Part shown: one piece after another, positions 56,201 to 59,200 of the stretch
Numbering within the stretch: the first letter of the stretch is position 1
How the letters are laid out: each line of letters begins with the position of its first letter
Assembly (NCBI RefSeq): GCF_035083965.1
Contig: NC_089726.1
Coordinates: 22,366,559 to 22,430,558, forward strand
Length of the DNA: 64,000 nt
From: Branchiostoma lanceolatum
Lineage: Eukaryota; Chordata; Leptocardii; Amphioxiformes; Branchiostomatidae
Direction: 5' to 3'
Notes under the pieces: generated by a model
Told to the model about the DNA's origin: nothing
Seen by the model: only the letters and a program-made list of their open reading frames with translations
The model's database searches: none
Translations under genes and position numbers: made by a program

Positions 56201-59200
56201 AGTTATGCATCTGTCATTAAAATAAGAATTGCTCTAAGGGCTTTTCCATTTCAAAATCTCAAAATGGATTACTAGTACCCTTAGGGGTTTCAGTTACACA
56301 CTCCCATGTATTGTCTTCTAGATTGTATATTTTTTTTAAATCATTAATTTTTGCAACCCCCCTCCCAAAACTTTTTATATGGAATAGAAGGGATGTGTTT
56401 TGTATTGAGTCAATGAGAGTTTAAAAAATATTAAAGTTAGCCAAATATTTCTTCAGAAAAGAAAAAACGGTATTTTAAAGTCATGTACCTTTAGTATATA
56501 AATCCTATAAGTTGTGAGAAACAAGTCTGATTTTGTGACTTCTCTTTGTTCTCTTCATCAGAACATTCGACTAATAGATTATGAGAGGATGGAGGATGCC
56601 CGGGGGAGGAGGGTTGTGGCTTTTGGCAAGTTTGCAGGGGTGTCAGGTAAATTACTCCTATCAATCTTAGAATTAGGGCTATTCTATTCAAAAAGGGAAG
56701 GGGATGATTTTTTTTTCTTTTTCATATAATGCATGGATAGAGAGCAATACATGGGAAGGTTGTGATTGAAATCGAAAGAGTCAGTGATAAAAGGTAAATG
56801 TAGTCCCATAGTCTTTTTGAAGCTTTAGGGGTAGTGGGTTGTTATCCACTGTGTCTAGGGCACCTGATTGGAAGGCAAAGCCCATCCCTCTGTTTCCACC
56901 ACCTTTTACCTCCCCAACCAAAGTCATGTACCTTTTACACCTGGGTTGAGTGAGGAAAGCCATGTAAAGTGCCTTTGCCAAGGACACAATTTGTCTCGCC
57001 AAGAATGCCAGGAATCAAATCTGTGACGTCTCGATCTCATGTCCACTCGGCTATTCGAAGTGGTGGAATTATGCTGTTGTAAAGGTTAGGGTGTTTGGCC
57101 CAAAACCCAGAGGTCTTGGGTTGGAATCCTCACATGCCACTGATGTTGTGCCCTTGGGACAGGCACTTTACACAACTTTCCTCACTTCACCCAGATTTAA
57201 AAATAGGTACCTGACTTCAGTTGGGGAGGTAAAAGGCAGTGGAAGGAGAAGGATGGGCTCCACCTTCCAATACAGTGCCCTAGACACAGTGGATAACAAC
57301 CCACTTCCCCTACGGCCTTTATGAGACTACTTTTACCTTTACCAAGAGAGCGAAGGGGGAAAAATATTCCTATCCCCTTCATCCTCAGGTTTTGAGAAGG
57401 AATAGCCTGCCTGTATTTTTCTTTCATTAGAAAATCCGGCTGATAGATTTTGAGAAGATGACAGACGAGCGGGGCAAAAGGGTAGTGAAATTTGGCAGGT
57501 TTTCAGGTGCCCCAGGTAATGACCTTCAGCCTTTTCAGTCACAAACATCAATGTTGTTGTTACAGAAAGTGTCATTTTTAAAATTTGAAAGAGTAACATG
57601 CCATATACCATACATGTCATTGTCTTAGAAGCATTAGAATTAATGATACATTATCATACTCAAAATATACTTCAGAGTCATTAAGATTTTTACAATAATT
57701 TTATAACTAGTCTGCATATTTGTGTTATAGATCAAGCTGAACATTTTAGCAAATTTATTGAATCCAAAGACATCTTACTGTGAATTTTGTTTACTTTCTC
57801 CTGCATGTTTTGAATCAACTTTGCATCCAGTAGTGGAACTGTCTTTGTTTTCTTCCCCAAGGAATGATCAACATCCTCCACGGCATGGGTCTGCGCTTCC
57901 TTGCGCTCGGACATCACACTCCGTTCATGGTAGGCAAACAGAGACGGCAGACTTCACCCACTTACTCATACATCTTTAATACTCTTACAGTCCCACAGAC
58001 AAAAGTGCCACTCCAAAATAACCTGAAAGTTGGTATGGCAGTTATTTAGCTGGGAAATGTGTGATTTTACTACTCTGTATGATTGCAGGCCTGTGAAATG
58101 ATGTATTTTACAGGCTTATTTTGGGTTTTTTTTTGCCAATTTCCCTCAAAATGTATATTGTAGGACTTCAAACTTGGTATGAGAATGGCTGTTTGGGGAA
58201 AGAGTCCATTTTGGATGCCGGTTATTTGGGAATATCCTGTCAGTACTCTGGATCCATTTTTTGGTGGAAGTAATTTTTGTATTTTGGGTTTGGGAGTCAC
58301 ATTTCTAGGCAAATGAGTTATTTTATATCTTAATGAGAGACAAAATTGAATCAGCAGTTAATTATTGTAATATTATACATTGTATTTTATCATGTTGACT
58401 TCAACTTCAAGAAAGAGAATTCATTTTAATGAAAAAAATACTTCAGTAAGGCATGATTATACTTTGGACTGATACAAGTGAATTTTACTGCTGGTTTGAA
58501 ATATTTCCTGTCATCTTGTACCTTTTAAAAATGTTTATGGTAGATTCTGAGTTACAGGTAAAACTGTTTTATATGAGAGTAATTATTTCTTTTGTGACTA
58601 CTAGTGGTTATATACAGTCGCACCATTGTTCAATCTGTCGAACCCAGCACATCGCTCAGAGTCACAACTATCGGAACAGCGAGATGGCGCGCCAGGCTGT
58701 CCGAGACTGCGGGTATGAGATCGCTCTTGGCCTGATGCCCCAGTCCATTGGCCCACTGACGTTTGTCTTCACAGGGTCAGGAAATGTGTCACAGGTGGGA
58801 ACATGTGCATACTGATAGGGGCAAAGGGGGAGGGGGATGTGAGATAGTAGGTTAGACTAGACAACCAACAATGTACATGTATGAAACAATCCCAAAAATG
58901 GAACTCCAGGGTTTGAAAAACTTTTTATAGCCAGGTACGTTGCCCAGTGACAGTTTGTGCACTAAGCAAAATTCTTCAATTTTCAGCGGAAAAGCAATGC
59001 TGACGGCTGGAAATCAGTTAATGTGGATAAATTTAACAGAGCCATGGAAGAAAATTGATAACTTAATATTAAAGAAAGATCTTCAATCTGAAAGTCAGGA
59101 GCATACATGTATTGTACCGTCACAAACCATGCCTGTCACGTTCTGTGCTTTCCCAGGCACAGAACGTGACACAGCCCGACCGTCACAGACTGTGCCCGGA

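Follow-up and report, generated by a model that had tools for sequence, protein, structure and literature searches.

A likely pair of mutually exclusive exons at the nicotinamide site of an LKR gene in the lancelet Branchiostoma lanceolatum

Introduction

LKR (lysine-2-oxoglutarate reductase) is the first lysine-degrading enzyme. In the lancelet Branchiostoma lanceolatum, the gene that encodes it carries two neighbouring homologous exons, here called 3a and 3b, and the locus raises the question of whether both are used, whether the use of one excludes the other, and whether the choice between them would change the enzyme. An earlier note on this DNA had proposed a frame-enforced, mutually exclusive pair in AASS, and we followed it up by computational analysis of the window, that is, the whole 64-kb stretch of DNA, together with protein models, protein structures and the literature. 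The analysis makes it likely that 3a and 3b are a tandem-duplicated mutually exclusive pair in an LKR-only gene, and that the 3b version encodes a changed enzyme.

Gene model and reading frame

All exons of the gene model lie on the plus strand. Exon 1 (53316..53594; 93 codons) holds the ATG, the presequence and the start of LKR, and exon 2 (55315..55491; 59 codons) leaves phase 0. Exons 3a (56562..56646) and 3b (57431..57515) are followed by exon 4 (57862..57929), which is entered in phase 1, and by exons 5 (58648..58794), 6 (60420..60498) and 7 (61568..61695), with the remaining gene beyond the window. The protein spliced via 3a (exons 1, 2, 3a and 4–7) agrees at 321 of 321 residues with P0002, the Branchiostoma lanceolatum model of alpha-aminoadipic semialdehyde synthase isoform X2.

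As described in the earlier note, 3a and 3b are homologous exons of 85 nt each that begin in phase 0 and end in phase 1, with an intron of 784 nt (56647–57430) between them; these features were confirmed base for base. Each has intact GT–AG splice sites, with a pyrimidine-rich tract closed by AG before it and GTAA after it. Aligned with one another, the two exons agree at 60 of 85 bases; their peptides share 17 of 28 residues and differ at 11. When the 3a peptide was run against the 64 kb in a six-frame ungapped scan, 3b scored 93 and the next best stretch 28, so that the match of 3b to 3a is not due to chance; the same scan found no third copy of the exon in the window.

In-silico splicing upheld the further claim that the reading frame enforces the use of exactly one exon. 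Joined to exon 4, either 3a or 3b gives an open frame. Because the exon length of 85 nt is not divisible by three, including both or neither leads to a premature stop: the double-inclusion message reads GVSENPADRF and then stops, after seven codons, and skipping both exons yields LDRE followed directly by a stop (GAA TGA). Thus the two exons have sequence features expected of tandem mutually exclusive exons, namely neighbouring homologues, equal length and phase, and non-productive double inclusion or skipping. Exon 2 would be spliced to either 3a or 3b and from there to exon 4, with exclusivity enforced at least by the reading frame, and double-inclusion or skipped messages would be removed by nonsense-mediated decay.

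Several repeats lie in and around the gene. A minisatellite with units of 83–99 bp (54955–55315) runs across the acceptor at the boundary of intron 1 and exon 2, and holds four extra upstream copies of the acceptor together with about 43 nt of the exon 2 start, the exon-like starts being at 54955, 55054, 55137 and 55220. These extra acceptors are decoys, because splicing there and reading on leads to a stop. The intron after exon 5 contains a tandem array of a CACAAACCGTGC-type repeat (59628–59810), with inverted copies around it as judged by eye. A retroelement remnant (61796–63106) lies in the intron after exon 7; it matches a reverse transcriptase weakly (RVT_1 at 28.2 bits, slightly below the Pfam cut-off) and is accompanied by open stretches further downstream. 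On the minus strand, two open stretches above the Pfam cut-offs, at 40679–41407 (RVT_1, 53.3 bits) and 12257–12796 (DUF6451, 49.3 bits), are likely mobile-element remnants.

Residue changes at the nicotinamide site

The segment encoded by exon 3 was compared with those of other organisms. From 240 proteins, made up of the best 120 of 1638 and the best 120 of 6394 matches, 105 without the segment (SDH-only proteins or fragments) were dropped, and removal of the three lancelet rows from the other 135 left 132 segments, which are not independent and include close relatives, isoforms and metagenome proteins. Positions are given in human numbering, obtained from the alignment to PDB 8e8u with an offset of 18, derived from the construct start at residue 21 and the presumed start of the human protein; this offset places Ala-Gly at 154–155, in agreement with the report on the human enzyme (PMC9490328).

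The protein differences between 3a and 3b had been called conservative except for E/T, A/E and A/K, a description that understates them, the telling changes being A20K, A25S and also S28P. A20K falls at a near-invariant position (human 149; Ala in 131 and Met in one of the 132 non-lancelet segments, Lys in 3b) and A25S at an invariant one (human 154; Ala in 132/132, Ser in 3b), and at position 157 the non-lancelet segments have Ala (119), Ser (11) or Val (2), with Pro in 3b. At three positions, 138, 140 and 142, 3b is the copy nearer to other animals, its Lys, Thr and Glu there recurring in 113, 19 and 43 of the 132 segments, respectively, and Glu140 of 3a occurs in none of them. This pattern therefore indicates that both copies diverged, 3a mainly in the first half of the exon and 3b mainly in the second. 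Glu137, Arg146, Phe150, Gly151 and Gly155 are fixed in all 132 segments and retained by both 3a and 3b; Arg146, Phe150 and Glu137 presumably correspond to the active-site residues Arg131, Phe135 and Glu122 of yeast Lys1.

According to the report on the human enzyme, the nicotinamide of the yeast structure binds exactly at Ala154, where larger side chains would obstruct it, and human LOR forms a tetramer (PMC9490328). A154T has been reported in one hyperlysinemia patient with decreased AASS on immunoblot (PMC3626681); because AASS was lower on the blot, the harm may be due in part to instability rather than to lost binding. The 11 residues that distinguish the two lancelet proteins surround the loop next to the nicotinamide site. 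The 3a form would be the ordinary enzyme, with the residues common to other animals retained, and 3b, judged from its residues, probably makes an LKR with an altered cofactor or substrate site. With Lys149 and Ser154, its cofactor and substrate binding would be changed, probably to weaker or differently selective binding, and 3b subunits could modulate mixed tetramers, given that human LOR is tetrameric. The AlphaFold model of the 3b form (P0001, 22 rows) is weak, with a mean pLDDT of 62.1. It had been suggested that the exon pair could tune the reductase between tissues or conditions. The pair does lie in the LKR domain, but 3b changes the Ala-Gly motif where nicotinamide binds, which makes a mild adjustment through conservative replacements doubtful.

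Serine is barely larger than alanine, which counts against a strong effect of Ser154 in 3b, and one might suppose that both exons are used, that the two proteins are near-equivalent and that the choice between them is without functional meaning. The small step from Ala to Ser and the retention of the five fixed residues in both forms speak for such near-equivalence. However, 3b departs from other LKR proteins at one invariant and one near-invariant position across the 132 segments, and its Lys, Ser and Pro are kept in both lancelets, so we regard a meaningless choice as unlikely.

The pair in a second lancelet record and selection on 3b

The pair also occurs in a second lancelet record, in which each of the two exons has an annotated protein of its own. 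This record is probably a hybrid, B. floridae x B. belcheri or B. floridae x B. japonicum, and its two NCBI models are P0001 (isoform X2, 531 aa), which is the 3b version, and P0004 (isoform X3, 508 aa), which is the 3a version. P0001 and P0004 are mutually identical in the parts encoded by exons 1, 2 and 4–7 and look like isoforms of one gene. Each of the three lancelet LKR models, which are models and not reads, contains exactly one version of the exon (3b in P0001; 3a in P0002 and P0004). A second variable stretch, which starts with LITPYG after RPRTS and lies beyond position 64000, is present in P0001 and P0002 and absent from P0004, which suggests that the gene has a further alternative exon or alternative splice site.

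Between B. lanceolatum and the second record, a comparison that rests on two lancelet records, the 3a peptide is identical at 28 of 28 residues (the same in P0002 and P0004) and the 3b peptide at 26 of 28 (those common to P0001), and the first 47 residues, the presequence, at 31 of 47. Exon 1 as a whole is identical at 75 of 93 residues, and from this divergence it follows that the exon pair predates the separation of both lineages. Between 3a and 3b, the Nei–Gojobori method gives a dN of 0.26 and a dS of 1.01, hence a dN/dS of about 0.26, a rough figure from 84 sites (14 replacement differences on 64.2 sites and 11 silent ones on 19.8 sites); by codon position, the differences number 4, 8 and 13 at the first, second and third. 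In P0003, a model from the ostracod Notodromas monacha, a repeated block starts at NIRLID, at the start residue of lancelet exon 3. The intron position at the start of exon 3 may accordingly be old, with the qualification that the P0003 repeat is possibly an artefact of the model or assembly.

These data bear on whether 3b is mainly a poison exon, with double inclusion lowering LKR output and the 3b protein being scarce or hardly useful. The stop seven codons into the double-inclusion message would suit such a role. Yet the frame of 3b is intact, its dN/dS against 3a is low, 26 of its 28 residues are kept between two lancelets and the model P0001 uses it productively; a poison exon would need none of this protein conservation, and we consider the role improbable. 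It is scarcely credible that 3b is a relic no longer in use or an artefact of prediction, in view of its intact frame and GT–AG sites, matching length and phases, low dN/dS and a peptide conserved in a second lancelet. A chance match or a decayed exon was likewise rejected on the window scan, the codon pattern and the cross-lancelet identity.

A predicted LKR-only product

The gene had been identified as AASS, an identification that the lancelet models do not support. The LKR domain is present (PF05222, with alignment to human LOR across 271 residues), and all three lancelet models are LKR only and end after the LKR part, stopping at the LKR/SDH linker; the SDH domains PF03435 and PF16653 are absent from P0001, P0002 and P0004 (508–540 aa). 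As predicted from these models, with the gene end outside the window, the product is not the bifunctional AASS.

An SDH-only protein, P0149, named B. floridae and 491 aa long, carries an N-terminal extension of its own and was matched to SDH structures of human AASS. A split of AASS in lancelets into the LKR models and a separate SDH-only protein is possible, as two genes or as two products of one locus, with the records coming from different assemblies. Among the best 120 of 1638 matches, 111 are at least 800 aa and five are shorter than 600 aa, and no joined LKR–SDH lancelet protein was found among these 120. A quick tree was made from 39 SDH regions, whose rows were labelled as SDH-only or joined from the length and Pfam columns and whose SDH-only rows include some possibly incomplete models. 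It requires 12 changes to account for the 13 SDH-only rows from outside lancelets, and shuffling gives 11.2 on average, so that these rows do not form one group. Eleven of the 13 group with their own phylum, the exceptions being Ciona and Amphimedon, and the lancelet row is without a starred place.

Search for 3b-like segments elsewhere

The earlier note knew of no such pair in vertebrate AASS, and the search agrees with it: nothing 3b-like occurs in the 132 non-lancelet LKR segments, which include those of the vertebrates P0116, P0183 and P0232. The closest to 3b outside lancelets among the matches listed is the nematode protein P0236, with Met149 but Ala154. A 3b-centred search, in which exact shared 5-residue words were required and 90% clustering would mask a B. 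lanceolatum 3b protein behind P0002, gave one match (P0001) among two candidates. In the open-licence literature we found no report of mutually exclusive exons in AASS/LKR, and none on LKR or saccharopine enzymes of lancelets.

Intron structure and splice choice

Most of the intron between 3a and 3b is filled by an inverted repeat on the plus strand (56790..57340; arms 56790–56989 and 57146–57340), whose arms pair in three pieces with 82, 82 and 90% complementarity. For the most part the intron folds into a single hairpin (z −15.9, equalled by 0 of 20 shuffles), and the repeat has partial relatives in the window, as pieces about 69–85% identical. It is probably a repeat insertion; because of these partial relatives we did not use the hairpin as a mechanism, and it may be a passenger.

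A candidate stem was found between an arm in intron 2 (56267..56424) and a partner arm just 3′ of exon 3a (56647..56789), both on the plus strand, a pairing that could loop out exon 3a and that we put forward as a lead only. Its energy is −83.1 kcal/mol, compared with −63.0 (SD 4.0) on average for shuffled sequences, and 0 of 60 shuffles and 0 of 60 other window stretches were as good. Five intron pairs were tried, with 0, 3, 15, 30 and 42 of 60 shuffles as good, and only the pairing of intron 2 with 56647–56789 stands out. The own fold of the stem region is moderately unusual (z −2.4; 0 of 100 shuffles as good). Among these five pairs, in this one sequence, no competing intronic pairing of the docking–selector type was found.

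Comparison with known systems

Tandem mutually exclusive exons are already known (PMC6071210), and so is the use of mutually exclusive exons in a metabolic enzyme (PMC10407955). Exons 3A and 3C of ketohexokinase (KHK-A and KHK-C) are likewise mutually exclusive and give forms that differ in affinity (PMC10407955), although that enzyme is unrelated to lancelet LKR and belongs to different animals. In insect Dscam and 14-3-3zeta, homologous neighbouring exons of similar length are thought to have been duplicated in tandem (PMC6071210), and competing docking and selector RNA pairings are used, whereas the lancelet set comprises two exons only.

The human AASS LOR domain (PDB 8e8t/8e8u) is homologous, with 271 residues aligned gap-free at an E value of 1e-122 or better. 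Human AASS is a fused LOR–SDH enzyme (PMC9490328), whereas the lancelet models are without SDH and 3b departs at positions 149 and 154. Yeast saccharopine dehydrogenase Lys1 (PDB 2q99, 2qrj) likewise stands alone, and the exon 3 segment aligns with it gap-free; it has Ala at both positions changed in 3b. Unlike lancelet LKR, it uses NAD(H) and serves lysine synthesis (PMC9490328). What is unusual in the lancelet gene is that an active-site loop is swapped and that the product is LKR-only.

Significance

The preferred reading, a tandem-duplicated mutually exclusive pair, implies that the animal is probably able to make two LKR versions that differ at the cofactor site. We propose more tentatively that a stand-alone LKR is under a splice switch, in which the 3b subunit, its loop beside the nicotinamide rebuilt with Lys149 and Ser154, lacks activity, acts as a regulator or differs in the cofactor or substrate that it selects; this we regard as a possibility rather than an expectation. 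If it is true, tissue- or stage-specific splicing would set lysine breakdown via the 3b enzyme or mixed tetramers. The natural exon swap offers a ready pair of enzymes that differ at Ala149 and Ala154 in a core metabolic enzyme, and a comparison of the 3a and 3b enzymes would show the role of these fixed residues, of which Ala154 is changed in a human hyperlysinemia patient.
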